Assembly: GCA_030765065.1 (NCBI GenBank)
Contig: CM060990.1
Coordinates: 6,442,001-6,506,000 of the forward strand
Direction: 5' to 3'
DNA: 64,000 nt
From: Deroplatys truncata
Lineage: Eukaryota > Arthropoda > Insecta > Mantodea > Mantidae
Of the stretch, positions 6,969 to 62,470 are shown piece by piece. The notes beneath the pieces were generated by a model. It had not been told where the DNA came from. It was given only the letters and a program-made list of their open reading frames with translations, and did no database searches. The translations under genes and the position numbers were made by a program. Position 1 is the stretch's first letter; each line of letters opens with the position of its first letter.

Positions 6969-7081
6969 ATGGGAGGAAAGCTGTCAGCATTAGATCCCAT
7001 GAAAGTAGATGTTCCAGAGCTACAAGCTCAATTAGAACGAGATCCATATCTGAAGTCTTATGAAAAGGAGTTTAGAAGAAG
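6969..7081 (+). CDS. GBE1: Glycogen branching enzyme, coding exon 1
   Basis: The reading starts at ATG 6969 in a good context (AAAAATGG) and gives 37 codons plus 2 bases before the donor GTAAGC at 7082. The peptide contains DVPEL and DPYLKSYEKEFRRR, matching the N-terminal helical segment of eukaryotic 1,4-alpha-glucan branching enzyme (family pattern DVPEL...DPYLKPY..DFQRRY). The enzyme moves 6-7-glucose blocks from alpha-1,4 to alpha-1,6 linkage in cytosolic glycogen synthesis. Codon 38 (Arg) is completed by the first base of the exon at 32515. The exon is free of stops and has a canonical donor. A non-coding 5' UTR lies upstream, of unknown extent. Confidence 0.93.
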
Positions 7082-7387
7082 GTAAGCCCAAGTGGTTTTA
7101 TGTTCATGTGCGAGGTTTAATATTACTGAAATATGAAGGTCAGTGTGACATTGACATGTTTTGTGCCGGCAGATATATTATAGGAGCTTTATTTAAGGAA
7201 TTTTAAGGAAATGAAGTTATTCCGTTTTCTGTTTCTTCAATATCGTCTCGCTGTTATTTCGAATAATGCCCAAAATTCATGTTAGGCAATTTCGTCATCA
7301 AGAACTGTATTATTTTAGATTCAAATTCAAATGTCTTTATTGTTTAAAACATGTGAATTCCATGCATAAACGTCACTTATTAAATTA

Positions 7388-7625
7388 AAGCGGTTTTCGA
7401 CAATCTGCTCTTAGTTCTCTTCTTTGGTGATGAAAAACATATCCAACAGACGAATATTTAATGCCGCCAAAGCCGGTAAGATACTCGGCCTTTAAGGCGT
7501 AGCCGAGAAATTGAGGGCACTCAGCCTCAAAGCGTAGCCGAGGTACGTTTTTTAGAAGGAAAGGATGTAGCAGTTGCACCCATTTTCAACAAAGAGAGCT
7601 AAGAGCAGATTTACCGCGGTTTCTT
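7388..7625. mobile_element. MITE with CTGCTCTTAG inverted ends, copy 1
   Basis: AATCTGCTCTTAG (about 7402-7414) and its reverse complement (about 7599-7611) form the core of an approximately 28-bp terminal inverted repeat, with an outer AAAGCGGT/ACCGCGGT extension. The interior carries KGCGTAGCCGAG-type repeats shared with the copy at 7795-9330. It encodes no protein. Confidence 0.7.
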
Positions 7626-7794
7626 TGCAGTATAGTAGAACTCGATAAAAGATGCACATCTATATAATATTGTTACATTGTGTACATATAGCTAAAATAT
7701 AATTTTACGCTTGAATAAAACTCATTCACCTTGTAAATAACCTAGCTTGCACCTTAAGAGAAATAAACGTTGAAATGCAAGATTATAAAGGCAT

Positions 7795-9330
7795 TTATTA
7801 ATTAAATATTTCGACATTCTGCTCTTAGTGTATCCCCCACAACGATGAAATGATGTGTTATATGTCCAATAGATGTCACTCTGTCATACACAAGCCCTAA
7901 CTCAATGCTAGCAACATATGAATAACTAATGCCACAAAAGCCAGTAAGATACTCAGCCTCAAGGCGTAGCAGAGAGATTGTGGGCCCTCAGCCTCAAAGC
8001 GTAGCCGAGGGATGTTTTTAGAAGGAGAGGAGTGTAGCAGTTGCGTTCCTAAGCTTAGGTTTCTGATTCACAAGAGTTTAGGTTAGGTTTAGTTTCTTTT
8101 ATTTTTTATATAAGCTTAGGTTTCTGATTTACTTATATATAACCTTGTTTTAATTTGTTACCAGTGGTTACACAAAAGCACGGGAGTGAAGCAAACATGC
8201 GCTCATAAGCTTAGTTTTCTGATTCACAGGAGGTTAGATTAGATTAGATTGTATTCTGTGAGTTCACTAGCAGCCATAAAGGCTTGTGAACATAGAACAT
8301 GTCAAGGAAATGTACAAAAATTATATATAAACATAAATATTACATAGAATATGGAACATTTGAAATAAAATACAAATACTATATGCGTGTTAAGGAAATG
8401 TACAATAAAGTTACATATATACATAAATATTACATAGTATACAGAACATTTAAAATAAAATAAGGACATATTATATACAAAATGAAACAAATCAAGTGTA
8501 ATTTTGTACAGAGTTGAATACCTCCTTACTGTTATAAGGTTAACATACGTATAGGCAAGAACAGTTATTTTAACATTCACTACGATTTTACCTTTGTTAG
8601 TCTGATCATTTTGTTCTATTTAATTTGTAATGCATAGCGTTTACTGTCAGTTTGTAATATACATACATTTAAATAGCTTCATTAATTCTAGAGCAGATAT
8701 CAAATATGACTGGCAATTGTCATTAATATTTACTAATACTACTTACAGAGCTATATAAGTATTATCATTAGGATTTAGTTTTTTTTATGTAAGCTTACAT
8801 TTCTGAATTCACGGAATGTTAGCCTTAGGTTAGGTTTTTTTTTATGTAAGCTTGCCGTAACTATCTACCACTGTTACAGTAAAAGAACTTCTTTATTTAA
8901 TGGAAATAACATATTAATATAGCAAACTTTCACAAAAAGAATACAAAAATTACAGTTTTGGTGAATAGTCTTTCTTACTATGAATGCGTTGCGTTTTTGT
9001 CAGCGGCAACATTAAACGAAGAAGAACAAATTCTAGTAACAACAACACATTGCATATTTAGCAGATTTCACTTTTTATTTAGGTTGGCAGTTCCCATTTT
9101 GCATGTGGTTTAGCAACAACATGGCTACGTTTGTTGCATTCCTCATACAACTTCCCTATAAGAGTAAAACACCTAAAAGGGCCGGGCAGGTGAGCATCAG
9201 CTATTGAAGAGATCACATCTACTTTTAAACTCGCTCCTAAGGTGATTTATTCGCATTTCTTAGGATTATATAAGCATTTTCAACAGGGATACACTAAGAG
9301 CAGATTTGCAAAATATTTTTATACCGCTAT
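7795..9330. mobile_element. Same MITE family, copy 2, split by a 1.2-kb insert
   Basis: The left half (7795-8046) aligns with copy 1, including TCTGCTCTTAGTGTATCCC and CAGCCTCAAAGCGTAGCCGAGG up to GTAGCAGTTGC. The matching right end (CATTTTCAACAGGGATACACTAAGAGCAGAT) lies at about 9275-9308. The 1.2 kb between is absent from copy 1 and is therefore a later insertion. It holds repeated TAAGCTTAGGTTTCTGATT motifs (about 8050, 8112, 8206, 8790) and an 88-bp tandem duplication (about 8304-8470). Confidence 0.7.
8304..8470. repeat. 88-bp tandem duplication
   Basis: AAGGAAATGTACAA followed by AATATTACATAGWATAYRGAACATT occurs at 8304 and again at about 8392. The sequence is AT-rich and non-coding. 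Confidence 0.7.
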
Positions 9331-11942: not shown

Positions 11943-12994
11943 CAGAGAGCCAAAAAATCATGAACCGGTTGCACAGTGTTTTTCCTGTCTGCGTCCTCGG
12001 CATTCGTTTCCGTGCGCCGCTATCGTAGAAAGGCATGGATGAAACTATACAACATTTTTAAAACTACTTTTAAAGGCTTTACTTACCATTTTTATGAAAG
12101 GAGATATTGAAACTGACCACCGTCGTTGTCCATATATTTTTGGCACCTCTTTAGGTAACTATCCATCACTCGCCATAGTTCACATTGAGAAATGCTGAAA
12201 ATTTCCTGGTGGATATTTTGTTTTAATTCTTCCAGGGTGTGTGGGTTTGTCTTATACACTTTGTTATCCCAGAGATATAAATCACAGGGGTTTAGGTCGG
12301 AGGACCAAGGGGCCACTAATCTCTACTAATAATTCTGTCCTCTAATGCATTTTCAATTGTTCTCATCGAAATATTGGCCATATAAGCTGTTGCAGAGTCT
12401 TGTTGAAAATAAGGCCAATTTTTTATGAGTCAATAGCTGAAGCCCGTGCATACATGAATACAATTTTGCCCCGTTTTTAGAGAATTAACAGACAGGGAGC
12501 GTGATTTTACCTTTTTTCAACAAGACTCTGCAGCAGCTCATACGCCAATAATTCGATGAGAACAATTGAACGTGTGTTTGAGGACAGAATTATTAGTAGA
12601 TTTGTGGCCCCCTCAGGCTCCGACCTCGTTCTAACCCCCGATGATTTCTATCTCTGGAGTAAATTAAAACATAAAATGTACAAGACAAGCCCACACATCT
12701 TGGAAGAATTAAAACGAAATATCTGCCAGGAAATTGCCAGCATTTCTGAACGTGAACTACGGCGAGTGATGGATAGTTTCCCAAAGAGGTTCCAAAAATG
12801 TATGGACAATGACGGTGGCCAGTTTTAGCATCTCCTTTCATAAAGTTGGTAAGTAAAGCCTTTAAAAGTAGTTTTTAAAATGTTGTATGGTTTCATTCGT
12901 GTCTTTCTGTGATAGCGGCAGATGGCAACAAGTGCCGAGGACACAGACAGGAAAAACACCATGCAGGCGGTTCATAGTTTTTTGTCTCTCCCTG
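11943..12994. mobile_element. Foldback element built from two opposed mariner transposase 3' ends
   Basis: The left arm (11943 to about 12420) and right arm (about 12505-12994) are inverted copies of one another. The outer ends read CAGAGAGCCAAAAAATCATGAACC and, from the right, CAGGGAGAGACAAAAAACTATGAACC, each next to a TA (11941-11942, 12995-12996). Each arm carries the end of a transposase pointing to its own terminus. The left arm on the minus strand has WSSDLNPCDLYLW. The right arm on the plus strand has LTPDDFYLW and HILEELKRNI. QQDSA, the second catalytic aspartate region, lies near the centre in both. The element encodes no complete transposase. Confidence 0.85.
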
Positions 12995-15782: not shown

Positions 15783-15995
15783 CAGGGTGAGCCAAAAGAC
15801 TACAAACCATCTGCGCAGTGTTTTTCCTGTCCACGTCCTCGGTGCTCATTGCCGTCTGGTGCGGATGAAACCATACAACATTTTTATAACTACTTTTAAA
15901 GGCATTACTTACCAACTTTACGAAAGGAGATGCTGAAACTGGCCACCGTCGTTGTCCATACATTTTTGGCACTTCTTTAGGAAACTATCCATCGT
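15783..15995. mobile_element. Solo arm of the same foldback/mariner family
   Basis: It starts CAGGGTGAGCCAAAAGACTAC next to TA. It matches the left arm of the 11943-12994 element through CAGTGTTTTTCCTGTC, ACTACTTTTAAAGGC and GACCACCGTCGTTGTCCATA-like sequence. It stops near 15995 with no opposing arm, so it is a truncated copy. Confidence 0.75.
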
Positions 15996-21954: not shown

Positions 21955-22960
21955 ATGCCCCCCCCCTCCACCAGCTTCAAGGTCATGCAACCTCTGGTGG
22001 GTGATACAGGAATCTGTGTAAATGAAGTAAACGAGATCCGAAACCCTGAGGCGAAGTATAATCAAAATAAATTTACGGCACAAACAACGCGCACAGCATC
22101 ACACGAGTCGGAAGTGATAGTGTCACTACAAATAATAGTTGATATGTTGAACAAAGACTTAAAACAAGCACAAGAAGAAATCATATCACTGAAACAAGAG
22201 AGAAAACAAGTGCAAATAGGGATCGTAGCACTGAAACAAGAAAATGTAGAGTTAAAAAACGAAATCCAACATCAGACCGAAAAAGAAACTTATGCTACAG
22301 TCGCAAGAAGGAAAACAAACAAAGGGGTTGACCTACCAGATGATCAACGTGGTAGTGCAGTAACAACTACGAACCGATTTAGCGTACTGTATAAAGAAAA
22401 CGAACCCACCAGTGAACAATGGAAGAGAAATTGGGATCAGCAAGAAAGGAGAAACAGCAAGGGAAGTAATGGAAAAAAAAGTTATGGTGTTTGGGGACTC
22501 GCTACTGAAATTTGCCGGGAATGAATGCAGAGATGCTGGCTTTGAAGTACAATGCTGCCCAGGGATACGAGTGGAAGAGCTAAAATGTGAAGTTGAGAAT
22601 GCGAAACTGAACGAAATAAAGCCAAACGTGGTTGCTATTCACATGGGAACGAACAACATCCGGAGAAGAATTATGACTGAAGAAATTATGGGCGATACCA
22701 TGGACCTAATAAGTGAAATCAAAATTCAAAGCCCAGAAACCAAAGTTGTGGTCAGTGGAATATTATGCAGGCGAGATGTGACCACACAAAAAGTGAGAAG
22801 AATTACTGCAGAGCTGGAATGGTTATGCTATACTTGAAAGTGTATGATGCTGGATGGTAACTGGTGCATACGGACAGAGGATCTAGGTAGAGATGGTGTT
22901 CATCTCAACAGAAGAGGTGCAGTTAAGTTTGGAAGGTTCTTGTGTGAGGGGATTAGCAAA
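21955..22960 (+). pseudogene. LINE ORF1: coiled coil plus SGNH/GDSL esterase
   Basis: The first frame (21955-22524) has a heptad-rich region at residues of about 55-115 (repeated LKQE blocks), fitting an RNA-binding/trimerising coiled coil. A frameshift near 22410-22490 moves to the second frame, where VMVFGDSLL (22487-22513) is the SGNH block I nucleophile region and IHMGTNNI is block III (GxND). After a stop at about 22836 the same frame reads GRDGVHLNRRGAVKFG, the block V DxxH. All catalytic positions are still visible. ORF1 esterase domains are known from CR1/L2 elements. The ORF is split by one frameshift and one stop. Confidence 0.8.
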
Positions 22961-22989
22961 TGCCAGGGACAGGGAAACTTATAACCATG

Positions 22990-25935
22990 TGGTGGATGCA
23001 GTATCCGTGGAAACCCAATGTTTCTCGATGTCGGAGCACAGTGGTGATAAACATTCTCCTTGTATAACAAAAAAGGACTTTAATGTAGTTTATCAAAATG
23101 TCCAGTGTCTTTGCAATAAGCTCTTAGATATAGAAATATTTATAAACACACTTGAAAATGTACAGGTTTGCTCTTTCACTGAGCACTGGCTTAAAAATAC
23201 AAGCATGAGTACAGAGTCAGTCGTTCTCTCAAATTTTGTAATCGGAGACATTTACTGTAGGGAGAATTATATTCATGGGGGTACTATGATAGCAATAAAA
23301 AAGGGCATTAAATATAAAAGATATTGTAAAACATCTTCACTAAATGAAGAGAAAGTGTTCGAACACACTGTAGTAGAAATAACAGATTTAAAATTATTCA
23401 TTGCATGCATATATCGGTCACCAAATGGAGACTATAAGGCCTTTTTTGGACAAATTAGAAATAATGATTACCTTCCTAAAAAAACATGCAAAAAATATCT
23501 TAATTTGTGGAGACTTCAATATTGATTTTCGTAAAGAAAGCACTTCCCTTCTAAAATTAAAAAATGTACTTGCCTCGTTTAATCTGGAAAATGCAATAGA
23601 AAGTCCCACCAGAGAAACGGATAGCTCCAGTACAATAATCGATGTCATGTTATTCGACAAAACAGACATGAACTACAAACTCACAAATATTAATGCAGGT
23701 TATTCTGATCATAATGCCATAATATTAAGTTTAATAAATGAACTAAATGCTAGCAATAAGTCTAAGCCTCAAGAACAATATAAAAGAATTTATTCTAATC
23801 AAAACATGTCATATTTTAATACACTATTAAGCAATGAAGACTGGTTAGATGTATATAGGGTGTCCTCTGTAGATATGAAATATCACAGCTTCATAACAAC
23901 TTTTATGCACCACTTTAATACAACATTTCCATATAAAAAATAAAAAATCGACAGATGAATGTAAGGAAGAAATGGATTACCAAAGGAATTATAAACTCTA
24001 GCAATTGAAAACGTTTTCTCCTAGAATTAAGTAAAACAAACAAAACTGAAAAGTTCCAAAAATATTTCAAACAATATAGGCAAATTTATGATAAAGTAAT
24101 AAAGGCTGCAAAAAAGCAGTATATTGATGCATATATTAGTAACTCATCGAATAAAAACAAAACATTATGGGATATAGTAAAAAGAGAAACCTCCAGTTCT
24201 AAAGTATGCCACAATAAAATCTCGTTAAAAATTGATAATACCGTTAAGAATCCAAAGGAAGTTGCTAACATCTTTAATGACCATTTTATTACTGTTGCTG
24301 ATAGAGTATCATTACCACAACAAAATAATAGTAATAGTCCATGTGCTAAACTAAACAGAAATGAAAAAAAACATTTTTCTTAGGCCAGTTATGTATGATG
24401 AAATAATTAAAATAATTAACTCAAAAAAGAATAACTACTCTGCAGGATTTGACGAGGTACCTGAGTGTGTAATTAAATTATGTAAGGACAGTATTGTTAA
24501 TCCCATACAGGATATATGCGATACCTCCCTTTCAACAGGGCTATTTCTAATAAATTGAAGCTGGCAAAAATTGTCCCTGTATATAAAAAAGATGATGTAA
24601 ATATTGTTGATAATTATGAGCCTATTGCTATCCAGTCCGGGTTTTCTAAAATTCTGGAAACAGTTATTTACAACAGAATTGCTCCCTTCTTGGAAAAATA
24701 TGCGCTTAGTGATAAACAAAATGGCTTCAGAAAAAACAAATCCTTACTAAATGCCTTCTATGCATTCATAAAGGGGACACTTGAAGGAATTGATGCTCAA
24801 AACACTACAGTTGGTTTATTTATGGACTTGAGCAAGGCATTTGATTTAGTTGACCATGCTATATTCTGTCGAAATTAGAAGCCTATGTAATACGTGGGGT
24901 AGCTTATAAGTGGTTTGAATCTTACTTAACTAACAGACGACGGGTTACAGTAATAAATGGTGGTATCAGCCATGTAAATTCTGAGACAAAGATAGATGTG
25001 GAGTTCCCCAAGGCTCTAATCTTGGACCTTTACTCTTTCTAGTATACATTAATGATCTGCCTGTCAATATACCACATGCTGAGACTATTTTATATGCTGA
25101 TGACACCAATCTTATTCTCCAGGGTAATACATGCACCAACCTGCAAACTCAAGCTGGTAATGTAATGACTAGTATGGCAAAATGGCTAACTACAAATAAA
25201 TTAATATTAAATGGGAAAAAATCTCATTGTATGTGCATTACACAATCCAATAGAGGTAGTAAGTCAGTAGGACCAAAAATTGTATACAATAATGAAACCA
25301 TACTGTATGTCTCTGAAACAAAATTCTTGGGAGTCACCATTGATAAACACCTAAATTGGAAAAGCCATATTAAAAATGTTACAACAAGAATAAATAGAGC
25401 ACACTATGTAATATCTGTTTTAAAAGGCATTTGTAACCAAAAAACACTAAAAATGATATACTTCTCTTATGTACAATCTGCACTTGCCTATGGTATATTT
25501 ATTTGGGGATCTGGCAGTGATATAAGCACTCTTTTCATACTACAGAAAAAAATAATCAGGCTAATGCTAAACCTAAGTAGGATGACATCATGTAAACCAC
25601 ACTTCCGTCAACATAATATTCTTACTCTACCGAGTCTGTATATATTAGAAACTGTATGCTTTATAAGGAACAACATTCATCTATTCAATATGAGCAACAC
25701 TGTACATGAACATTCCACTAGAAACAGTAATAAAATACACTTACAGACAGCCAGAACAACAAAAAAGGCCAACTCAATACTGCATAAGGGCATACAAATG
25801 TACAACCTCATTACAAATAAGGTAAATGTTTGTAATCAGATTAAGTTTAGACACAATGTTAAACATTTTTTAATTAAGCAAACTTTTTATAGTATGGAAG
25901 AGTTTTTTGAATACTTAAAAAAACTAATAACTTAA
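22990..25935 (+). pseudogene. LINE ORF2: APE-type endonuclease and reverse transcriptase
   Basis: Endonuclease: VVYQNVQCLCNK, then SFTEHWL (catalytic Glu), CIYRSPNG, ICGDFNIDF and YSDHNAI (final DH pair), across two frames (22893-23525 and 23401-23943). RT: AKIVPVYKK, KQNGFRKNKS and MDLSKAFDLVDH (24516-24878), then GVPQGSNLGPLLFLVYINDLP near 25005-25070 and TILYADDTNLI near 25083-25120. The thumb and tail (25165-25935) have LGVTIDKHLNWKSHI, and HSTRNSNKIH near the end. Frameshifts lie near 23500, 24560 and 24890-25010. Stops near 23940 break the endonuclease-RT link. Confidence 0.9.
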
Positions 25936-25937
25936 CT

Positions 25938-25943
25938 TACTAA

Positions 25944-26000
<57 letters not shown>
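25938..26000 (+). repeat. (ATT)n microsatellite
   Basis: Uninterrupted ATT run of about 20 units, directly after the LINE ORF2 stop. Confidence 0.95.
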
Positions 26001-26142
26001 TTAATTAATATGTATTCTCTGTATATAACACTGTAAAATGTATTTTTCCTGTATATATTCCTCACTATTTTACTTAAATCTTGACGAAGCCATGAATTTG
26101 TAAGAAAATTCTCTTGGTGAATAAAAACATACATACATACAA

Positions 26143-26639: not shown

Positions 26640-27560
26640 AGGGCCTAAGGGAAGGACACCCTTAATAAAGGGGAAGATAATGGAAAGAGCTTTGAAATTT
26701 TGGTTCAGAACTTTAAATCTAGGAAAAAGTAATGTGTTAAGACAATGTATTGAATACCAAGAGAATAGCTTAATGAATGATGGATGGGTAAGTAAATTAC
26801 GGAACGTTTTGGAGAAAAATGGGTTAGGAGATATATGGAGAAGGAGAGAAAATAACGTAAAAAATTTCTGGAAAAAGGCGAGGAAAAGACTGGAAGATAT
26901 AGAATTACAAATCATGTTCAGTGAGATTGCCGAAAAGAGCTCATTAGTTTATTATAGGCCAATGAAAAATACATGGGGTAGGGAAAAATATATAGACATA
27001 GTAAATAAAGAAGAGAGAGTATCTATTGCATGGTTAAGAACCGGAGCATGGAGGCTAAAAGGGCTAAGACAGGGTATTCCTCAGAACCATTGTCCGATAT
27101 GTGGTGGTAATGAAGACATTGAACACATAGTATTTAAGTGCCAAGGAACAGAAAATTGGAGAAAAGAATTTTTTAATAAGAAGTGGTTGAAGGGGGATAG
27201 AAGTACACTTATGATTGAAATGATATGTAAGGACGCTAGAAGCATTGGACAGTTTTTGTGTAAAGTAAAAAATAAATGGCTTTGGACAGTGGAAAGAGAA
27301 AAGTAAGAGGTAGTGCATCTTACTTTGAATAGAAAACTATAGTGAATGTGTGATGGTTAAGTAATCAATAAATGAAAAGTGAAAAACAAGTGGAAATGGG
27401 ACATGAAAAAAACTGAAAAAAAAAAGAGCAAGATAATTTATTGACAAGAAATTGTAAAATGTAAATAAACTGTAGTGATTGTCTACTGAATGAGTGACCA
27501 GGGTCAAAGTGCAGTAGACAATCAAATTTGTAAAACTCTTAGCACAATAAATACTATACT
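26640..27560 (+). pseudogene. 3' end of a second LINE family (terminal zinc finger)
   Basis: One open frame of 208 codons (26680-27306) holds IAWLRTGAWRLKG, then CPICGGNEDIEHIVFKC (C-x2-C-x8-H-x4-C) and WRKEFFNKKWLK. This is the post-RT C-terminal domain also seen in the longer minus-strand LINE at 52-56.6 kb (CPLCGEADNDLHYIIEC). A 3' UTR runs to about 27560 and ends AAAACTCTTAGCACAATAAATA. The RT part is missing, so this is a 5'-truncated insertion. The open frame suggests it is among the younger copies here. Confidence 0.8.
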
Positions 27561-28270
27561 AAAATTACAGCTACAGTGAAGGCCATCATCCAGGGGAAAG
27601 ATATCCCAACAGAAAACCTTGGTCCTGCAGACTTATAGGTGTCTCAGAGGACTGGTAACTCACCAGTGTAAAAATAGTGTACTCGCAAATCTTAAACCAA
27701 AGGATATCTCAAAACAAGATGGAATGTCATGAACACGTTTTAAGGATGAACCTGACAAAAATAACTCACCAGGCACTACAATACATGACAGAAGGAATCT
27801 GGGATATTGGATAACCTTGGCATAGATAACGAGAGTAACTCTGAGACAGGTTGGACCTGGATGCCCACCTTGCAGATGATCTGCAGTAGAGTACCCCTGG
27901 CATGTTAGGCCACAATTGCTCTTCAGAGTGCCCTCCTAATCCACTCTTTATCAGTGCAGCTCTTGCTTCTACCTGAAGAATGTATGTTGACTTATTGTAT
28001 AACAAAAGATGTTAGTGACAAAAATCATATAGGTCGTGCAATTTTAGGTTTGTATGTCATTGACATCCTGTATAATTGCTTGCTATGCCTCTATGTTATA
28101 CACATGATACAGCCATTACTCTATTGCACTAATGAAATATTTGTGCAAGCTGTTAATCATAAGCAGGGAGCGGATATGTGGTAAAAAAAAGTTAAAAATG
28201 TTTATTTTTCATGTGCTAAGAAAAAGAAGAAAATATTTGTTAAAAATGTCAAAATGCTTTACTTAAGTTC
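27561..28270. other. Intronic, nothing recognised
   Basis: Short ORFs without motifs. The slightly GC-richer block 27585-27975 may be an unidentified repeat. Confidence 0.35.
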
Positions 28271-32514: not shown

Positions 32515-32684
32515 GTATGCTTGCTTCAGAGATTACATAGACAAGGTGTCAGAAATTGAGGGCGGGCTGGACAATTTCACACGTGGCTATCAATATTTTG
32601 GAATTCATATAAATGAAGATAATTCTGTAACCTGTAGAGAGTGGGCTCCTGCAGCAGCACAGTTGTATCTTGTAGGAACTTTCA
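32515..32684 (+). CDS. GBE1: Glycogen branching enzyme, coding exon 2
   Basis: Acceptor TTTTACAG (ends 32514) and donor GTAAGTAT (starts 32685). The exon completes Arg38 and encodes residues to 94 plus one base. The peptide has IEGGLDNFTRGY, FGIHINEDN and CREWAPAAAQLYLVGTF, matching the family pattern GGIDKFSRGYxxFG...KEWAPGAxxxxLTGDFNGWN. It is the first half of the CBM48 carbohydrate-binding module. One base (A) is carried to exon 3 to form the conserved Asn. No stop or frameshift. Confidence 0.96.
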
Positions 32685-33115: not shown

Positions 33116-33159
33116 TCCTTGTAGGCTTTGGTTTAGCATTATAATAAGAGTGAAATACC

Positions 33160-33270
33160 ATAAACTGTTAGAGCTTTGAGATGGTGACTGGTCTGGTACA
33201 ACATTATAGTCACAGTAAAATTGCATCAACTGTTAGTGTTTTGAGACGGTGACTGAACTGGTACAAATGA
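33160..33270 (+). repeat. Two-copy tandem repeat, about 65-bp period
   Basis: AACTGTTAGAGCTTTGAGA..GGTGACTGG..TGGTACAA (about 33164-33202) recurs at about 33229-33267 with few changes. Confidence 0.7.
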
Positions 33271-33572
33271 GTAAAGTTTTCACTACTTGAAGTTGCAAAT
33301 ATCCACCTTTTTAGAAGAAGGAAAAACTAGAAGTGCCAATCAAGATTGAACTTGAGCACTTTGAGCTACAGAATCTTCATTTGGACGTGTGACCACATTA
33401 TGTAGAATTGCTTGCCCAGCACTGTGCTGTTTCTAACTGGTTCTGTCCCCCCTCTACTTTCCCTGCTATTTATGTGCTGGCCAATCAGTTGATGTGAAGT
33501 CTGCTGTACATAGTTTGATATGTTGAGACCATACTATGTTTTTCAGTGTTATAGTGTGTTAGTGCTGTTATA

Positions 33573-35039: not shown

Positions 35040-37154
35040 TAAGTAAAAGCTCGGTTAACTGAACTCGGGTTATCCAAAACATCTCCGAACATTACAAATC
35101 CCAAAAATAATACTGTTCTGGTGAACACCTGACCTTGAGTTGTGTCCCGAGCCACCAAATCACCAGTCTAAATATAGCTACATTGCCAACACTCCCAAGA
35201 CTATGACACTCACATCAGTCACAAGTGCGAATCTGCGATACAGTGGCGCATTCAGTTATTTATTTCCGTTATGTGTGTATGGCGACTAGGTGGAAGCATG
35301 TTGTGATTACTTTAGCTTATAAATTAGCTGCTATCAAAGAAGTTGAAAAGGGAAGTTTGTTGAAAACTGTTGGTGTTTCTACTGTTTCAGAGGCTGAAAT
35401 CTAAATCTCTAGAGTAAGCTGTGAAAAATCCTCATAGAAAAACAGTGAAACATCTGGCTTTGCAAAAGTAGGCAAGCACTTTATCTTTGGTTCACCCAAC
35501 AAGAAAAAGGCATGCCTTTGACTGGCCTGATACTACAAGAAAAATTAAAATATTAGCTGAGTAGTTGTTAGGTGAGGAAGGAAAAGATTTCTGTGCAAGC
35601 TCTGGATAGTTAGACAGGTTTAAAAACAGATATGGCATTTGGAAATTGAATATATGTGGAGAAAAAATATCTGCAAACCCAGATGCGGTTGATGTTTTCA
35701 AAACAGGGTTTAAGATTACACCCAAGGCTACACTAAGGAACAAATTTACAATGCAGATGAAACTGATGTTAATTTCAAGATGTTACTTACATAATCCTTA
35801 GCTTCCTCAAAAGAAATGTCTGCTCCAGGACACAAAATAAAAAAGAACAGATAGATGTTCTTTTGGCATCAGTTGCTTCTGGCACACACAGACTGCCCCC
35901 AATGTGTATCAGGAAGTCTAAAAAAACTTCCAGCCTTGAAGGAAGTTGCCCAAAATGTGCTGCCAGTTTTTTATTAAAGCCCAAAATAGTTCCTAGATGT
36001 CTTATGAACTCTTTGCCAAATGGTTTAGTGATCAGTTTGTACCGAAAGTTAAAAAGTTTTTAACTGAAAAAGATCTGCCTAAGAAAGCAATCTTATTAAT
36101 TGACAATGCGGCTATGCATCATTGGGAGTTAAAAAAGTGGCGATATTGTTGTGCATTTCCTTCCCCCAAATGTTACCAGTCTAATTCAGCCACTGGATCA
36201 GGAAATAATAGCAACATTTAAATGCCATGAGCTATTTTTGAGAACCATCCTGCAAGATAGTGACATGCAAAACAAAAACCTGCATGAAGCACTGAAGGCA
36301 GTAAGTATGAAACACATAATTTATTGGTGTGTGTAAGCTTGGGGTAGTATGAAAGCAGAAACTCTTCAGAAGTGCTGGAAAAAACTGTATGAATGGGCTT
36401 GAAGGAGATGGCTCAGAAAATTTTGAAAACTTGATAGAAATGTTAGAAAGAATTCCCGGATGCAAAGACATGGATGCATGTAAGGTGGATGAATGGATTG
36501 ACACAGATATTGCAAGAAATCACAGACCAAGGAATTGTAGAAACAGTGTTGCAGTCAAATGCTGATGTGATCAAAGAACCCGAAGTAGATGACATGGATG
36601 ACAGAGTGACAGCTGACGATGGTTTTCGAGCACTAGAGATAAGTCTAAATTAAGAATTTGTTCTCTTTCAAGAACCTACTGGGTATAGTATAACACAGAA
36701 ATTACAGTAATGTGGTGTTACATATTTTAAGTTGCCCCTAAGATTTGTTGAACAATGTAGTGAGTCAATGCCGGCTGACGTCCTTCTAATGAAAAGATAG
36801 CGGAACATTGCTGCTCAAAAATGTTTTGAAGGACACAAACAAACAAACAAACATTGTGAAGTTTTTTTTTTTTGAATGAGCAATTCATATGCTACAAACT
36901 ATTCTAACTATTAAGTACAATATACTGTATATTGATGTACTGTAATCCCAAAAATGTAATTTTAACTTTAATAAAGAACATAAGTGTAGCCTACAAGGAG
37001 GTTTTTGAATTCATTTGACCTTCAAAACCTTTAAAAAATACATACTGTAATTGCAATACAAAGTACTATAGTATTAGATGTTCATGGCTTAACTGAAAAA
37101 TTGTTATCCGAAACGGCATCATCCCCTTTAGTTCGGTTAACCAGGGTTGCACTG
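35040..37154 (+). mobile_element. Pogo/Tigger-type DNA transposon relic
   Basis: The right terminus reads inward as CAGTGCAACCCTGGTTAACCGAACT, the classic Tigger-type end, with TA at 37155-37156. The left end (about 35040) has TAAAAGCTCGGTTAACTGAACTCGGG and GGTTATCC, a partner with eroded outermost bases. The interior holds a Tigger-type transposase pseudogene. Confidence 0.8.
35281..36655 (+). pseudogene. Tigger-type transposase
   Basis: N-terminus: ATG 35281 reads MATRWKHVVITLAYKLAAIKE and EKGSLLKTVGVSTVSE, the CENP-B/pogo HTH. A CENPB-type second HTH follows (GEEGKDFCA, LDRFKNRYGI). The DDE region has WFSDQFVPKVKKFLTEKDLPKKAILLIDNAAMHH (35997-36221 frame, second Asp) and FLPPNVTSLIQPLDQEIIATFK (36151-36336 frame, third Asp). 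The C-terminus has TADDGFRALE. It has several frameshifts and stops, including one at the first-Asp region. Confidence 0.85.
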
Positions 37155-37156
37155 TA

Positions 37157-38659
37157 TTTATCCACCAATAGGAAAATTACACTTATTTTAAGGAAATTCT
37201 GTCAATGGAATAATACTAAAGCAAGATGTCACCTGACTTGGTTAGGAGAAACAAGAAATACGTGGTGAGATCTAAAATACTTGAATAAGATCACTTGCAT
37301 TTTGGAGGTATGCAGGGTGAGGCATGTAAGACAGGATGCGTGTGGAGGCCTATATGTAAAGCACTTATAATTTGGAAGTACATGTAGGTGGGCACATAAA
37401 ACGTATCAACTAGGAGTATGCAAAAATAGGCAATGTAATTCATAAAGTGGAGCCATGCGCTGTCATGTAGTTCTGGTTGTAGTGCTCACAGTGCTCCTGT
37501 AAAGGAAGTTTACAGCAAGCAGTTTGCAAAATCAGGGTCTGATGCAAATATATAATGTTTGTGTGGCAGGATCAAATCCCGGGAGTGGAGTTAAAGGGAA
37601 CTATATAAAGTGCATGTGAATAAAGTTATATAGACATAAAAGGCCTCTATATTGGGCATCGGAAAACATAATCTGAGATAAGAGATCCATCATTACATCC
37701 ATGCACCACCTGTATCTCTCCTTCTCCTTCCCCTCCACGAAGAGTTGTGTGTCTCACAGCTTAAGAAGTTTCTGATATTTTCAGTGCTGGTGTGAGTGAA
37801 AATTGCAGTAATGCTAGAAGTGCATGTCTTGGTAGTAAATATTTTTATGAAAATGACAAACGTGTATCATAAAGTGGTAAAATTTAGCACCCAATAAAAC
37901 ATATTGCTTTGACCCAAAAATTAATATGGGAAACAGTCACCTTGAAATCCTTAGAATAATCACTTATATAAAGATCTAGGGCACACTGCACAATCAACTT
38001 GTACTCCATGTAAGTTAGACCCTTGGGTGATCTCAAAAGGTGTGTGTGAGAAAATTGTGAAAAGTGGGTAGGGTAAAATCGGTATCCTGTTAACAGATGC
38101 AATGTTTAAGTCACAGAAAAGGAGTGAAACTAGGTACATATGAAAATTCTACTTAATGCAATACCATAATAGGGTAAGTTTCTGGAGATACCTAGAGACT
38201 TATGCAAACATTCTCTCAAAGTTTTAGCTTTTTTAAAAATGCATTTTTGAGTTGAGCAATGCAATAATCTGCTTAAAGGCATTTAATCAATGAAAACCGG
38301 CATTTAAATAGTTATGTCCTGTCTTCAATGCTTTGGCTGTGATACCTTTTGTAGGAGATGAATTTGAAAGATTATTGCTAATACAGTAGTATTACCAATA
38401 ATCTATGATGATGTGATCGGTATCAAGATTTCTCTGAAAATTTAACTTCTGATAATATCATTGACCAAGGCAGAAACTTAGTATTCAGAATTAGCAAGAA
38501 TAAAATGAGGATACTGTGTTTAATTTTGTGAAGTAATATACTTAAAATTAATTTAATATAATTTCTCCCATACTTGTGGTTGTCATATGCATTACATACA
38601 TAAAACTTATATGAGTGAGTACTGTTTACAGTTTGTGACTTTTCTTTTTCTTTTCCCAG
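37157..38659. other. Rest of intron 2, nothing recognised
   Basis: AT-rich non-coding sequence up to the acceptor TTTTCCCAG at 38659. Confidence 0.5.
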
Positions 38660-38775
38660 ATGGCTGGAATAGAAGTAGTCATCCATATAAGAAGTTGGAG
38701 TTTGGAAAATGGGAGCTATGTATACCACCAGCCAAGGATGGCTCTTGTCCTATCAAACATTTGTCAGAAGTTAAA
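38660..38775 (+). CDS. GBE1: Glycogen branching enzyme, coding exon 3
   Basis: Acceptor TTTTCCCAG and donor GTATGT (38776). The first two bases with the last base of exon 2 make Asn95, giving FNGWN, the hallmark of CBM48 in branching enzymes. The peptide continues HPYKKLEFGKWELCIPP and HLSEVK, ending in phase 0 at residue 133. Confidence 0.96.
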
Positions 38776-50785: not shown

Positions 50786-51960
50786 GAAGTTGTGTTATTG
50801 TCAATATGTTTGCTTATGACTGAATGTGCCATTGACATAGAAGAAGATATGTGCTGAGTGAAATTCTGAGTTTATCTCCTTATGTACAACTATGTACCTT
50901 TGAAATTCATGTAGATTTACATAAACAGTCACTTCCTAGTTATACTTAGAGTAAATATTGAATAATTTTGGTTAATGCTATTTTAGCATTTTAAGAGTAG
51001 TACAAAGTGTACAAGTGTACACTTCTGTTGTGGCTTTTGTTGAAGTAGATGATAGAGAATAAAACTTTGTCAACAGTGGTATCATTCTTTGCAGGACCGT
51101 TACCTTTGACACTATAGTAATCTAAAATTCTGATATTAGCAGTTTTGGATACTATCAAAAATACTTAAGGTGGAAATTAAAACATTTCATAGAAGTTGGC
51201 ATCTGTATGTATTGAGTAACATAAATGAAAAGGCTTATTGCTTTTAGGGGAAGGATGAAGATTTAAATTTATAGTTATATACTGTTTTAAGGATGCAGGG
51301 GGTGAAAAGAAAAATATTAGTAAATCAAAATTAATTAACTCTGTTATCCCAAATAATAAGCCATTATATATACTATTCATACAGGCAATGAAGGAACACA
51401 GTCCCCAAAAAATTAACCTTTAGTAATTTAGATATATAGTCTATAAAAGGGAGTGATCAAACAATTTCCTTTAAAAATATTTTTTTCAGGGCATTCTCCT
51501 TCCATTGTAACCTTTAATTTTAAGATGAGTATAACACGTGATGTAAAGCTAATGTAAATTGGATCAAGATTTGTGCAAGTGATTTGCTTTTATTTTTTAT
51601 GTTTGCTTGAAGAAATACTTTAAGTCTAATATCTAATACTTCAAAATAAATATTTGATACTTCTGCAGTACTTCTAAATTATTAATTTTCACATTTATGT
51701 TCATGACAGCATAATTGGCAGTTGTTGCCTTTTCACTTTGTGCTAGACAAGGATGAAAGAGTTGGAGTGTGAATTATGTCTCATACTATTGCCTTGATTG
51801 CATCATCAAAGTGGGTTATAATTCTTAGCTCCTGCCACGAGTGTGTTTCTAGATGTTGAATCAATGCACCATTCCGTGGCTCTTATATATGTATTTATTT
51901 TTCCATAATGCTGTACAAAAATCTTACAATTTTTCGTACATTACTTTGAGTTGCTATTTT
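50786..51960. other. Intronic, nothing recognised
   Basis: AT-rich with no supported ORF or repeat. Confidence 0.4.
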
Positions 51961-51998
51961 ATTCTTTAGTCCACCATGCATTTTAACACCGTGGTTAT

Positions 51999-54900
51999 TT
52001 ATGCATGGTGGGTCATAACAGATTTATATTGCTTTATTTTTCTAAGCCATTTTTCTCTTACTCTTCTCATATATTCTCCTATCCTTTTTATAACCCCCTC
52101 CTTTTGTATTTTCATTATCCTAACTTTTAATACTTCTTTGTTAACATTCTCCCATTCTTTAAGTAAAAACTGATCTCTCCACAACTTAGTTTCTTCACAT
52201 TCAATTATATAATGTAAGTCATTATCTGCCTCTCCACAAAGAGGACATCTATCCAAATTCACTCCCTTCCTATCTCCCCTTAGCCTATGTGCAATTAATC
52301 TAGACCAGGCCCACCCTTCTCTTGCTAACCTATTACCTATATTAACTTACTTCTCCCTTTCCCAGTCCACCTTTAATTATCTATATAGTTCCAAACTTTC
52401 CTTTTCTTCCAGACTTTGAAATAATTCTTGTCTCTCTATGTCTTCCACTCTGTTCCTCACTTCTTTCCAGAAACCTTTAACTAACCCCTCTCTCTCATCC
52501 CGTAAGTTACCCATTCCTATTTCCTGTAGGATTCTCCTTATTCCTTGAGCCCAGTTCATCCCAACACTGGATTTTTTTTCCATTATTAAACATTGCCTCA
52601 AGAAATTATGCTCGTCCAATAATTTCAATCTACGTCAATATTTAAGTATCCTTTCTACTATCATGCCCTTGCTACCTACTCTTCCCAACTCCAACATTGC
52701 TGCTCCATTTGGTGATGAAATGGATAAACCTAATATACATTTACAGAATGATCTATGTACTTTATGAATCATATCTCATCCTTTGTCATTTCCCCAAATC
52801 TCTGATCCATAGACTATTTTTGCTTCAACTACAGCTTTGTAAACCCTTTCCAACCATTTAATTTGCATATCTGGTATTTTTTAAACACATTCTTATGGCA
52901 GTGATTGCTAATCTTCCCTTAGCTAAGGCACTTATCTTGTGATCATTCCATCTCCCATTACTGCTTATTCTCACTCCTAAATAATCAAACTTGTTTACTG
53001 TTTGCAACTCTTCCCCTTCCACATACCACTTTTCCTCCAATTTTAAATACTATTATCTTTGACTTTTTAAAATTTATTCTTAAACCCCATTTCTTACAAA
53101 ATGAATATATGATATGGGGCACTTTTGTTAGACCTCCTCCTGAAATAGAACCTACCACTAAATCATTTGCAAAAAGTAATCCTGGAATTTCTCTATTATT
53201 TACTGTGGGTAAATATAAGTTATCCTTATTCAACTCTTCCAAGATATTGTCAATGAATAAGTTTAACAGTATAGGGCTAAGTTTACAACCTTGCCTTAAC
53301 CTCATATTACTATCAATTTTTCCCATAATTTCATCACCATTCAATCTAATATAAAACTTACTATTTAAATAAATATATATATTGTTTTGCATTGCTCTAA
53401 TGAATTTTAAACTTAGTCCCTTACTTCTCAGTTTAATCCATAGTGCCTCTCTATCTATAGTATCAAATGCCTTCTCTAAGTGAATAAATGCCATATATAC
53501 CTTACCTCTTTTAATACTTATGTATTTATCTACAATTAATTTTATAATAAAAATGTTGTCCACTGTTCTCCTACCTTTTCTGAATCCCCTCTGAAAAATT
53601 GCTAGTTTATTTTCTTCCTCTGCCCAATTCTGCAATCTAGTTGCTAAAATTCCTGAATGTAACTTTCCTTAGACTGACAGCGAAACTAATACCCCTATAA
53701 TTAATTGGATCTTGACACTTCCTTTCCCTTTATAAATGGGTACAATTATACTTGCCCTCCAGTTATGTGGTACCTTTCCTCCTTCAAATATAATATTCAT
53801 CAGATTAACCAGTATCTCGGTCCTATCTCTGTTCTCTGTCCATTTTCTCCAAAATTCCCTGGTATACCATGCTTTATTATTTTTAAACCTTTTAGTTTCC
53901 TCCCAAATTTCCATTGCCGATATTTTGTTATCTAGACTATCTATATATTCTATATCTAAAGATAATGGGATTAAGTTTGTTAATTTGGTCTGCCTACCTA
54001 ATAGGTTTTTAAAGTAATTACACCATATTTCTGGCACAATAACATTCCCCCTTTTATTCCTATTATACATTCCTCAGATTATTTGCCATATTCTACAGTT
54101 ATTATTTTTGTTTACTGCTTCAAGCAAGTTCTTACATAATCTCCCACCCCATTCCTTCTTTTTAACTTCAATTAAACATCTATAACTCCATTTCATTGTT
54201 AAATAATTTTTCCTTGAATCCTGATCCTCCTGTAGCTTCCATCTCTTTAATTCCTGTTCCACTCTCCTCTTAGCCTTAATACATTCCTCATCAAACCATC
54301 CCTTTCTTTCCATTTGCCACTCCTTCCTTTGTTTCATTTTACATCCTGCCTTTTTAACTATCCACTCCAATCTCCCAGTTACTTCCTCCGACTTTTTCCT
54401 TTGTAATAATACGTTTATATTACTCTTTGTGTCTTCCCCCATAATTAAATTCAGTCTACCCAAATACAGTTCTTCCTCTTCCCTTCTCCATTTAAATACT
54501 TCTATCTTCTTTCCCACCCTAACAGGTTCATCATCCACTATCTCACCCTTTACCTTAAATGTAGTCTTCAATGAAAAATGACAGCTAGTAAACACTCCCT
54601 GAACTACTACAAAATCTATTATTGCATCCTCAATACCCAATGAATAAAGTAAGTAATTGACTACACTGTCTCCATTATTATTTACAAACGTAATTTCACC
54701 CATCCTATCTTTTCCTTTAATTCCATTACAAAAATTCAAATTATTTTCTTCACAAAATTGCAGTAATTTTCTGCTTTATTTATTTACTATATTATCTCTA
54801 TTTTGTCTTTTCTCAATTTCCTGCCTTACCTTTATATTTTCTTCTACCCTTATTTGAGGTTGTTCACATCCTGACCTAGCATTAAAATCACCTACTAAAA

Positions 54901-55331
54901 CAATTTTTATATCAGGATTTATGTTACATAATACCTCCATATCATAGCTTAATTTACTTAATAATTTAGGGTCATAAAATTCAGATACACTTGGTGGGTT
55001 ATATACAATGCCTAAAGCCACCTTACTAACTTTTCCTAGTAGCCTGCTGTTAATAGCCACTGCACCTTAGCATCACGTAACTCCTCTACTGTCTTAACAT
55101 GAAAATTTCTCTCCTTTATAAAGAATCCTATTCCCCTGATGCTCTCCCCTTCTGGCTGATTCTCATTGCTAGTTGACTGAAATAATCATAGTCGTCCATA
55201 TCTATTTTCACACTTTCCCATACCCAAGTTTCAACAACTGCAAGTATATCAGCCTCTTTTAACAATTGCTTGATTTTCCCACTTCTCATTTTGTCCCATA
55301 GACCCTCGACATTCCAATATAACACCACCAA
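51999..55331 (-). pseudogene. LINE ORF2: endonuclease, RT and terminal zinc finger
   Basis: Endonuclease: LYWNVEGL (Asn block), AVVETWV (Glu), VLVGDFNARSG (Asp/Asn), within 55331-54776. Linker 54739-54074 (221 codons, charged) includes GWFDEECIKAKRRVE. RT: NWRASIIVPIYKGKG (about 53735), FQRGFRKGRRTVDNI, FIHLEKAFDTIDREALW, RQGCKLSPILLNLFI and GLLFANDLVV, where the family YADD reads FAND and so loses the first Asp. FDYLGVRIS is at 52858-53040. C-terminus: CPLCGEADNDLHYIIEC. Stops or frameshifts near 55100, 54750, 53650, 53040 and 52300-52860. Confidence 0.85.
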
Positions 55332-55849
55332 ATGTTTATCCTATACTGAACCTTTTCTTTCAAATCTAAATTGGTTCAGCTTAGATCTACTACGTGTCAT
55401 TCTTTGTTCTTCTTCACCCCCTATAGCACCCTCCACTTATATTATACTACCTTTCGGTGTTGACACTACACTCATATTGCCTTGGTTCTAAACATCTAAT
55501 CCTGCCACTGCCCCTAACACTAGTTGTCTGGCGTTGATTCTCATTTGTTGTGTTGGTTCAACACTCTTTCCCGGTGATGTCATCAGTTGACCTTTTTCTC
55601 CAATCCTGCACGCCTCCCCTCCTCTGATGTCACATGCTGCGTCACTTGTCCGTATGTCGTCACTCTTCTCTCCTACATCATCAGTCATGTGGTGGTGAAC
55701 AAAATGGCTTACTTCTCTTGTTTCCTGCTTGTGTGTCTCTCATATCGAATTCTGATGACTAATTTCCTGCCTAATGCCATCTATCCATGATGTAAGTCCT
55801 CTAATGTATGCCTTCTTTCCTTGATCTTTTGCCAACTTCATCTCTCTTA

Positions 55850-56404
55850 TTAAAAAGTTTCTGAACTCTGTTTCTTTTTACCATAGCCGTGTTCAATGAA
55901 AATTCTTGTTCCTTGTAGCTTTGATGCATTATTTAAAATTTTCCATTTAAAGTTTACTGTTGCCAGTTTTACAATTATAGGTTTAGGGTTTGCTCCTCTT
56001 CTTCCTACTCTAAATGAATCAGTTATTTCCCATCCTGTCAACTCGAACTTCAGCTTATTTCTCACAAGATCCTCTACCTGTTGCCAACATCTTTTCTCTC
56101 TCTCTTCCTCGTATCCAAAAATTACTATATTTCTCTTTCTATTATCTTCCATTCTGTCCAAATATGTCAATCTTAGGTTCAATTCTGATACCTTCTCTTC
56201 CACACTTCTTTGAAAATGTCCCATTTCTTTTTTAATTTCTTCCACGTTTCTGGCTAATCTCATATCAATTCTTTTTTCCATCTGCTTTGTGTGTAACATA
56301 TCTTCCGCGATCTTCTTTAATATATTCATAACATCCTCCATCTCTGGCCCTGAGTTCAATTCCACTCCACTGATAATCAGTAGAAATGCCAAAATTATAG
56401 CCAA
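55850..56404 (-). pseudogene. LINE ORF1 with coiled coil, RRM-like domain and a decayed 2A-like start
   Basis: The 184-codon open frame begins with a hydrophobic stretch (AIILAFLLII, residues 2-11) and GVELNSGP (residues 13-20). This differs from the 2A consensus DVExNPGP at two positions (D to G, P to S). A heptad-rich segment spans residues of about 25-85. NRKRNIVIFGYEEE and RVGRRGANPKPIIVKLAT follow, the pattern of an L1-type ORF1 RRM/CTD. ORF1p coats LINE RNA. ORF1 appears intact in frame to 55850, but its C-terminal end may continue past the stop. Confidence 0.7.
56345..56368 (-). other. 2A-like oligopeptide remnant in LINE ORF1
   Basis: Codons 13-20 of ORF1 read GVELNSGP right after a hydrophobic LLIIS run, the usual setting of 2A-like sequences at the N-terminus of some LINE ORF1s. 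The D and the penultimate-block P needed for ribosome skipping are replaced, so activity is not expected. Confidence 0.5.
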
Positions 56405-56590
56405 TCATATCACTGTCGATATTGTTCCTTTAACAGTCTTCCCACTTTTTCTCCATTTCACACTATTGAAAACTCTGATTTTGGCACGATAATTTTCTGT
56501 CAAAACACCCATCATGGAGCTCGTGTAACACACGTCCGTACTCGACCGCTCGTCAGCAGCAACTACACTCTTACATCTAAATGAAAGCAT

Positions 56591-59157: not shown

Positions 59158-59286
59158 GTAGTGGTTCGCACAAAAGAGGGGGAGGATCTTTACCGCTTAT
59201 CTCCATGGGCATCTTATGTTGTTGCACCTCCATCATCTGAAGGAGTTACTTATAAGCAACTAATTTGGCATCCTTCTCCAAATGAA
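59158..59286 (+). CDS. GBE1: Glycogen branching enzyme, coding exon 4
   Basis: Acceptor TGTTACAG (ends 59157) and donor GTAAGT (59287). 43 codons in phase 0 at both ends. VVVRTKEGEDLYRLSPWASYVV matches the family segment GEILYRISPWAKYVV at the end of CBM48. LIWHPSPNE corresponds to IHWDPEHSYE. No stop. Confidence 0.96.
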
Positions 59287-60360
59287 GTAAGTGGGTGAGA
59301 GAGAGTTAATCACATGCAATATGCTTATATTCAGAGCAAGGACACCTATAATTAAGCCTATAATTTTGGACACTTATAACAGGAGTTGACAGCAGTATGG
59401 TGTATAAACCTCTGAGTTGACCATGGGTAGTGCAGAGTTGGTTTACGCCTGTTTTCTGGGCTACTGACAAAGTACTCATTCATTAAGCCAAAAATGTTAA
59501 TTTTCAGAATTATTTTTTATTTATTCTTGTGCTTTGTATTTTGACAATTAAAATGATACATGTGTAACACCTAATATGTTTTATCTTAATTAACATTGTA
59601 TTTTTATTTTTAAAAATATGCTGCATCTGTCAAAATGATAGTGTACTGACTGAAAAAATAAAAAAACTTTGGAACATTGTAACTCTTTTTGCAATGCAAC
59701 CTGATGTAAATATTTGAAAACAAAGGAAGATGAAAAAGTGCATAATCATAATGTGTACCTTTAATTCATCTTCCTTGTTCTTGCATGGTTGAGATGTAAC
59801 CACAGAGATTTAGCTAATCCAGAACTTCTAAGCATCTTCAGGTGGAACACAAAATCCTAACGAATCACTGTGTAATGTAATACGGACCCATTTCCCCCCC
59901 TCCCCCAAATGTTTTTATTGTAATGGACACACTATATTATGGGATTCATGAGGAAGCAGCATTATTCAACAGGGAAAACAGAGTTAACTGACAAGTAATG
60001 ATGTTGCTTGGAATGAAAACTAGTTTTAATTGCATCTCTGCGGTGAAAATTTTAGAAGAAATAAATGGAAAAGCCAGGCAATCAACCCACAGAACAAAGA
60101 GAAAGTTTTAGGACCTATACCAGCAGGAGTAGGAACAACCAGATGATCCAATTCATCGTGCAGGAATGTATTAAGCTATGATTAGAAATGATTTTCACCT
60201 TAAGAGCTATTTCTCGAAAACTACAATTTTTCACACTTATGCTCCTTTTTCTCAGCCTCATATGTGGAAGAATGAAATGTTTATTACATATTCCCTGCAT
60301 GTATATGGGGAATTTTAACGTAAGGTTTTCTTAATAACATTAGTTTTGGAATTAATTGTT
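59287..60360. other. Intron 4, left part, nothing recognised
   Basis: Plain AT-rich intron. A C-run lies at about 59892-59907. Confidence 0.45.
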
Positions 60361-60364
60361 CTTC

Positions 60365-60870
60365 CATACAAGCCATGTGTAGGACAGGTTTGGAAAGGTA
60401 GAATAAGACGATTGAGAAATTCACTGCCATAGCCACGGATCTTCCTGTTGCTGTAACCAACTGAGCTACCATGGCAACATGCTGGTATGATATTAAATTC
60501 CCATGTTGATCCGCATTTTCCCCGATAAACCACAAGGAGATCTCAAATTATTATGAGATGACATATCCCAATGGCAACTTACAATGCCATAAGTACCCTT
60601 AAGTCCTGGGTTTGATAGTTTAACCAACTGTGAGACCAATCAGCTATTAAGTTGCCATTGGTGTATGTCATCTCAAAATAATTTGAGATCTCCTTGTGGT
60701 TTACCGGGAAAAATGTGGGTCATTTGGGAAATTTAAAGTGTACCGTCATGTTGCCATAGTGTTCAGTTGTTAGAGCAACTGCAGGAAATTGGAAGATCTG
60801 TTGGTTCAAATCCTGTCTATAGCTTTGAATTTTCAGTTGTCCTATTCTACCTTTCCAACATTATTTTTGT
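60365..60870. mobile_element. Inverted pair of tRNA-related repeats (SINE-like palindrome)
   Basis: The left arm (about 60365-60590) and right arm (about 60640-60870) are inverted copies. AAGGAGATCTCAAAT pairs with ATTTGAGATCTCCTT, and ACCTTTCCAA ends match across. The left arm on the minus strand has an A-box-like GGTAGCTCAGTTGGTTACAG. The right arm on the plus strand has a B-box-like GGTTCAAATCC (about 60803) after ATAGTGTTCAGTTGTTAGAGC. Each arm therefore holds a degenerate tRNA-like promoter. Confidence 0.65.
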
Positions 60871-61189
60871 CAAAAATACAAAGTATAGATTTCAGCATTC
60901 CAGTTTTTTAATGCAGAACACATTTTAAAAAAATTAGATATTAAAATCTATGAAACTTTTTAAAATGCTCCCAATAGAAGTTTATAAAGGCTTCAAAGGC
61001 TATATTATAAAAAATTCAACTTCCTAGTTATTGAGAAAAATGAACAGGAATGTGGGCATTTCTAATATTGTCAAGATAGGCCTTAATGAACCCTTAACTT
61101 GAATGTACTGCATCCCACCCTATTGGTTCTGAAGATTGTTTGTATTTAATATGTTCACAGCATTAAAACCCACTTTTGGTGCACGCTAA

Positions 61190-62025
61190 ATTATGCTAGT
61201 GAATATGCATGTCCAACAATTTGTTACTGGACGTATCTATCTGCCAGTGGGACAGGTCACAATGATTTATGCCCTGCTGTGGTTCACAAAGTTAAGCGTG
61301 TCCAGTGGTAGATCACAAATTGGTCAGAGAAGATGAATATCAGCCAGTGGGTCATAGTTGCATGTGAATGTGCAGGTCCACTGTCTTGTCAAAGTGAGTT
61401 ATGTTAATAGACATGTATGCTCACTAGTGGTTCACAGTGAATTATGTTAACTGAAGCATGTTATGGTTGGTGTGTAACAGTGGTTTATTTTAGTGGAGAT
61501 GCAAGTCCATCAGTGGCTCACAGCGAGTTACATTGGTAGAACATGCATATTCACTATGTTGAATTGCTTTATCATATCAAAAGGTATGTTAGTGAATATG
61601 CATGTCCAGTGGTGTGTACCAATAGTTTGTCTTATTGGACATGTATTCCATATGTGAGTTGGGCTGTGCTATGTATGTTAGCAGACTCACTGGAGACTAG
61701 CAGTGAGTTGTTTGAGTAGTATGCATGTTCACCAATATATGGTGGCTGACAACGAGTTGTATTGGTGGATATATGTGTCCATTAGTGTGTTAAAGTTGTC
61801 ATTGAACATGCATGTTCACAGGTTTGCGTACAAAATGTATTAGTCTATATGTGTTCCCTGATGAACCAAACCAATTTATGTTAGTGGACATGCATATCCA
61901 CTGATGTGTTGAAGTCGATTATGTTAATGTAAATGCATGTCCACTGGTTGCTCGCAGTAAGTAATGTAGTAGCCATAAATGTCCATTGATGTATTGCGGT
62001 GAGTTAAACCAGCAGACATGCTCCT
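61190..62025 (+). repeat. Degenerate tandem array with a TGCATGTCCA core
   Basis: About 16 diverged units in 840 bp. The unit is roughly TTAGTGRACATGCATGTCCACTGGTG followed by a CACAGTGAGTTATG-like tail. Clear cores lie near 61205, 61597, 61721, 61807, 61889 and 61932. The core TGGACATGCATGTCCA is nearly palindromic. Unit spacing averages about 50-55 bp. It is non-coding and ends about 300 bp before exon 5. Confidence 0.75.
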
Positions 62026-62325
62026 CCACCTGAAGGAATGCTAAGAAATCGTGATGGTCATTCGGGATGGTTTTGCCTTTCTGGAAGGTTGAAAATGACT
62101 GTCATAGACCTCATTGATGGAATCATATGGTGGTCTTTTAAATCTAGCAAAGTTTGCTCTTAAAAGGACATCTGGGATATCAACAAATTTTCACAGTTTG
62201 AGGTGTGCAATCGTTTTAAGATCCAGTGCTATTATTCATAAGGAATGAATGTGATCTCTTAATGTCAAAGGCAGGATTTGGGTTCCACCAGAAACCTTTC
62301 ACTTAGTTTTGTGCTTGTTTTCTAG

Positions 62326-62470
62326 AGATACCACTTCAAGCATCCAAAGCCAAAGAAGCCTTCGAGTCTGAGGATTTACGAGTGCCACGTAGGAATAGGT
62401 ACAGAAGAGCCTAAAGTTGGCTCTTATTTAGAATTTGCCGAGAGTGTAATACCTAGAATTAAGAAACAAG
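62326..62470 (+). CDS. GBE1: Glycogen branching enzyme, coding exon 5 (gene continues past window)
   Basis: Acceptor TTTTCTAG (ends 62325) and donor GTATGT (62471). 48 codons plus one base. [22 protein letters not shown] is the highly conserved entry into the GH13 barrel (family [22 protein letters not shown]). [16 protein letters not shown] follows (family YKHFTCNVLPRIKGLG). The final G starts the Gly codon of the next exon. The catalytic GH13 Asp/Glu/Asp residues lie in exons outside the window, so about a third of the roughly 700-residue enzyme is seen. Confidence 0.96.

Follow-up and report, generated by a model that had tools for sequence, protein, structure and literature searches.

The 64,000-base window analysed here (C16:6442001-6506000 in a genome of 4,289,915,091 bases and 818 contigs) almost certainly contains the first third, from the 5′ end, of an intact GBE1 orthologue that is present in a single copy and has introns swollen by mobile DNA; GBE1 is the 1,4-alpha-glucan branching enzyme of family GH13. 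By its sequence, the gene is an unremarkable orthologue, and the genome around it is bloated. The arthropod-type telomere repeat, as (TTAGG)7, occurs there 28,416 times when overlapping matches are counted, compared with 6 for a reversed control, and an insect origin is plausible and indeed probable. The gene lies under a sharply bounded CpG-poor domain that looks like a footprint of germline gene-body methylation.

Exons in the window

The earlier note had read five exons with GT/AG borders as a gene for glycogen branching enzyme, joined in phases 2, 1, 0, 0 and 1 into one open frame. Re-reading and splicing confirmed all five, on the plus strand. Exon 1 (6969-7081, 113 nt) provides codons 1-38 from the ATG and ends in phase 2, exon 2 (32515-32684, 170 nt) contains the start of the CBM48 domain and ends in phase 1, and exon 3 (38660-38775, 116 nt) completes the FNGWN motif and ends in phase 0. 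Exon 4 (59158-59286, 129 nt), also ending in phase 0, carries LSPWA, and exon 5 (62326-62470, 145 nt) carries [10 protein letters not shown] and ends in phase 1, at the counterpart of human codon 231. GT donors follow the 3′ ends of all five exons and AG acceptors precede the four internal starts. The exons span 55,502 bp with 673 coding nucleotides, and the phases were borne out by the spliced product, 224 codons without a stop in which all three motifs are present.

The enzyme identity was upheld by two independent lines of comparison. The joined five-exon protein aligns with human GBE1 (PDB 4bzy) over residues 7-222 (phmmer, E = 3.6e-69) and with Pfam CBM_48 (E = 3.8e-17). A human GBE1 query, independent of the joined window protein, was run against the whole 4.29-Gb genome and returned all five window exons in place, in order and on one strand. 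Exons 2, 3, 4 and 5 gave E-values of 5.4e-9, 1.5e-5, 9.5e-4 and 8.0e-10, respectively; the match at exon 4 extends 60 bases upstream of the exon, which accounts for the stops reported in it. Exon 1 by itself is weak in this whole-genome search (E = 3.04), and its call relies on its place, its splice phase, an in-frame TAG at 6957 (12 bases 5′ of the ATG) and the 4bzy alignment from residue 7.

The complete gene and its relatives

The five exons stood, but not as a complete gene: they are the first 5 of 14, and their 55 kb make up about a third of a 173.9-kb gene. The full model has 14 exons encoding 692 amino acids over 173,860 bp from ATG to stop. The human query gave 15 genome matches, 13 of them on the plus strand of C16 and corresponding to exons 1-13, one each and in order; the other two are weak and lie elsewhere (C7, E = 0.458; C11, E = 9.05). 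Past the window, eight of the nine further exons were located with this query and the last, exon 14 (C16:6622784-6622828), by scanning the sequence further downstream for a motif. With these nine in order on the same strand and contig and completing the enzyme, the claim of a single intron-rich host locus holds. All 14 exons are open, without stop or frameshift, and GT/AG borders occur at all 13 introns, twelve of which measure 525 to 28,825 bp, the last (6612256 to 6622784) being ∼10.5 kb. Conservation is poor at the end of exon 13; a frameshift there, prompted by a 16-nt direct repeat, was considered and rejected, as exon 14 continues the frame as written. Rfam and ARAGORN searches over the window found nothing.

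The predicted protein shows full-length homology to human GBE1 (4bzy, 1027 bits, residues 7-690 of 692, phmmer), and PF02922 (CBM48), PF00128 (alpha-amylase) and PF02806 (C-terminal beta) follow in order, all above the Pfam cut-off. Over exons 1-13, 431 of 672 positions (∼64%) are identical to human GBE1. D351, E406 and D475, presumably the catalytic Asp-Glu-Asp triad, align with human D357, E412 and D481. A primary transcript of ∼174 kb (ATG to stop) would be spliced at GT/AG borders into a 14-exon mRNA for the 692-residue enzyme, which is predicted to cut alpha-1,4 glucan chains and re-attach them as alpha-1,6 branches.

Two other origins of the exons were weighed. Very long, transposon-rich introns might be expected of a decayed or duplicated GBE1 copy, yet all 14 exons being open, the intact borders of 13 introns, the identity to human GBE1 and the retained D/E/D triad argue against a pseudogene, as does the lack of any second copy in genome-wide searches with two protein queries (the joined protein and human GBE1); the joined five-exon protein matches only these five places in its own genome at E ≤ 1. 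We consider a pseudogene very improbable. The PF02922 profile alone had no match in the genome, presumably because the domain is spread over exons 2-4. That the exons are chance open reading frame fragments between transposons is more improbable still, to the point that we count it as refuted: at 113-170 nt they are inconspicuous in the list of open reading frames, and exon 1 alone is weak, but the similarity of the joined protein to human GBE1, the order, common strand and compatible phases of the five exons, and the remainder of the gene downstream are all at odds with chance.

The intact orthologue also shares splice positions with its human counterpart. Human GBE1 variant names place junctions after c.691 (PMC13053116), before c.993 (PMC12208467) and before c.2053 (PMC12266137). 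With a +6 codon offset to human taken from the alignment of exons 1-13, junctions 5/6, 7/8 and 13/14 of the present gene coincide with human c.691, c.992/993 and c.2052/2053 in both codon and phase, so that all three human junctions located in the literature searched are matched. T254 and Y329 lie in human exons 6 and 7 (PMC12266137), the same exon placement as here. The remaining human junctions, 1-4 among them, did not turn up in these papers; going by the three shared positions, exons 1-5 of the human gene should be the counterparts of those in the window.

Human GBE1 (PDB 4bzy, 5clt) and the protein described here are colinear over residues 7-690 of 692 and share the CBM48, GH13 catalytic and C-terminal beta domains as well as the D/E/D residues. 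They differ in that the N-terminus here is 10 residues shorter, exon 4 contains two 2-residue insertions, and there are 14 coding exons here, whereas the last human exon is numbered 16 in PMC12266137. Bacterial GlgB belongs to the same activity class, and the GlgB models of NCBIfam recognise the protein with a best E of 3.3e-86, but the score lies under the curated GlgB cut-off (290 vs 577 bits); eukaryotic branching enzymes match the protein far better than bacterial GlgB does.

Intron repeats and mobile elements

The four introns in the window, all on the plus strand, total 54,829 bases, of which at least 47.9% recur at other places in the window or genome. This is a lower bound; the genome-wide repeat searches took in ∼39,700 of the 64,000 window bases and scored up to 40 candidates apiece. 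Repeat support is at least 40% for intron 1 (7082-32514, 25,433 bp), at least 67% for intron 2 (32685-38659, 5,975 bp), at least 57% for intron 3 (38776-59157, 20,382 bp) and, from comparison with the window and 206 kb of other sequence, at least 16% for intron 4 (59287-62325, 3,039 bp). Repeats defined from the window itself and those 206 kb of the same genome make up 14% of the window, and at the DNA level none of the five exons matches the remaining window or the 206 kb. The description of the locus in the earlier note as 55 kb of transposons is thus sustained for at least 47.9% of the window intron bases rather than for all of them. The introns most probably expanded step by step as LINEs and DNA transposons inserted, leaving the coding exons untouched.

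Pfam searches of 20 open reading frame pieces from the window gave five matches above the curated cut-off (Exo_endo_phos_2, three RVT_1 and DUF4817). The endonuclease and two reverse transcriptase pieces (23.4-25.9 kb) belong to a broken non-LTR retrotransposon in intron 1 (22001-26141, plus strand), presumably CR1-like, with other genome copies up to 96% identical among the matches listed. A GDSL-like esterase match at 22.4 kb, below the cut-off, precedes these pieces. Also in intron 1, an 895-bp LINE 3′ end (26668-27562, plus strand; zf-RVT at 26.6 kb below the cut-off) recurs in at least 39 other places at 97-99% identity, and it therefore probably belongs to a young, recently active family. 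Intron 3 holds a LINE (51884-56579, minus strand) with a reverse transcriptase on the minus strand at 53.0-53.7 kb. These three elements, and others, have many copies genome-wide.

The DUF4817 match, at 39.6 kb, is a helix-turn-helix. At 1.4 kb lies a DDE_3 piece below the Pfam cut-off, presumably mariner-like. Some of the other matches below the cut-off, such as ERM_helical and GPR15L, are surely due to chance. Intron 2 contains an older repeat (34675-37731, strand not assigned) interrupted by a 2.1-kb element at ∼35057-37161; at C5:153302557-153303486 and C5:171315604-171316513 both flanks adjoin without the insert, and the arrangement is a nested insertion. By eye, the ends of the inserted element look Tigger-like. 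At 11945-12990, two 318-nt inverted repeat arms, 410 nt apart, are 86% complementary, and part of this structure recurs inverted at 15862-15993.

A CpG-poor domain over the gene

The gene is covered by a sharp CpG-poor domain of 199.5 kb (C16:6451001-6650500; window part 9001-64000, unstranded) that starts ∼2 kb after exon 1, ends 28 kb beyond the GBE1 stop and takes in introns and transposons. In 2-kb bins, window positions 1-8000 are CpG-rich (observed/expected 0.84-0.93), and the median over 86 bins inside the gene is 0.34, the value also found for exons 1-13. For the 23 bins upstream, a set that contains another low block, the median is 0.74 (p = 0.0024 vs the gene). The 21 bins downstream, with a median of 0.32, do not differ from the gene (p = 0.34), since the low block extends beyond the stop. 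A five-segment fit gives 0.84 to 6413.5 kb, 0.28 to 6433.0, 0.88 to 6451.0, 0.35 to 6650.5 and 0.83 beyond; five segments were chosen as gains shrink, although the likelihood still rises beyond five, and a seven-segment fit also separates a CpG-rich piece of 1.5 kb at 6565001. The second CpG-poor domain, which measures ∼20 kb and lies upstream of the window at C16:6413501-6433000, is possibly another gene body.

The ∼200-kb block may be a fossil of germline transcription-coupled methylation affecting exons, introns and transposons alike, in which case the 28 kb past the stop would mark either an extremely long 3′ end or a neighbouring transcript that escaped recognition; we put this forward tentatively, at somewhat short of an even chance. 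The 5′ edge of the domain fits a transcription unit, and its 3′ edge comes 28 kb later than the stop. Base composition or repeat content alone could also produce such a domain, which we regard as unlikely. This explanation draws on the absence of a gene-versus-downstream difference, on CpG-rich bins inside the domain (e.g. 6556001 at 0.88) and on the last 28 kb, for which no host gene was recognised to account: C16:6626001-6651000, searched with Pfam in six frames, yielded pieces of Mos1/mariner-type transposases and weak matches. One of these, DUF3915, recurs in three frames at one position and is probably low complexity. The explanation also draws on paired transposon copies, in which the asymmetry is weak. 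In this weak test of 10 non-redundant pairs, CpG was kept only in the copy from the CpG-rich domain 38 times and only in the copy from the CpG-poor domain 17 times (p = 0.0065). However, the GpC control shows the same tendency (26 vs 13, p = 0.053), and CC the reverse one (14 vs 32).

Against a purely compositional origin stand the sharpness of the change points, one of them ∼2 kb after exon 1, and the anticorrelation of CpG with TpG/CpA (Spearman −0.51 over 132 bins, compared with −0.18 for CpG and GpC). The genome also encodes DNMT1-RFD and C5-methylase domains: the DNMT1-RFD match on contig C5 has E = 5.3e-19 and was found in 0 of 14 control genomes, and methylase pieces occur on contigs C5 (two), C7 (three) and C16 (one). 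On contig C5, RFD pieces at ∼127.79-127.80 Mb and methylase pieces at 127.56-127.62 Mb lie on the same strand. These DNMT1-like RFD and catalytic pieces extend over ∼243 kb (C5:127557686-127800609) and, if they form one gene, it would be another with giant introns.

A germline methylation footprint would have a precedent in the stick insect Medauroidea, for which PMC2747282 describes germline CpG methylation in genes and repeats, with CpG depletion and TpG/CpA enrichment in both, as seen here. Coding fragments of Medauroidea have a CpG observed/expected of 0.59 in the same source, compared with 0.34 in exons 1-13 here, and the present case differs from what is described there in being one sharply bounded block of ∼200 kb at one locus.

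As a gene, the locus encodes an ordinary orthologue of a conserved enzyme with introns inflated by mobile DNA, and its recovery indicates that reading exons by phase from raw sequence can succeed even where a locus is rich in transposons. The CpG-poor block is the only part that deserves a specialist's second look: if it is truly a methylation footprint, bare sequence could outline transcription units in giant insect genomes whose exons are nearly invisible.
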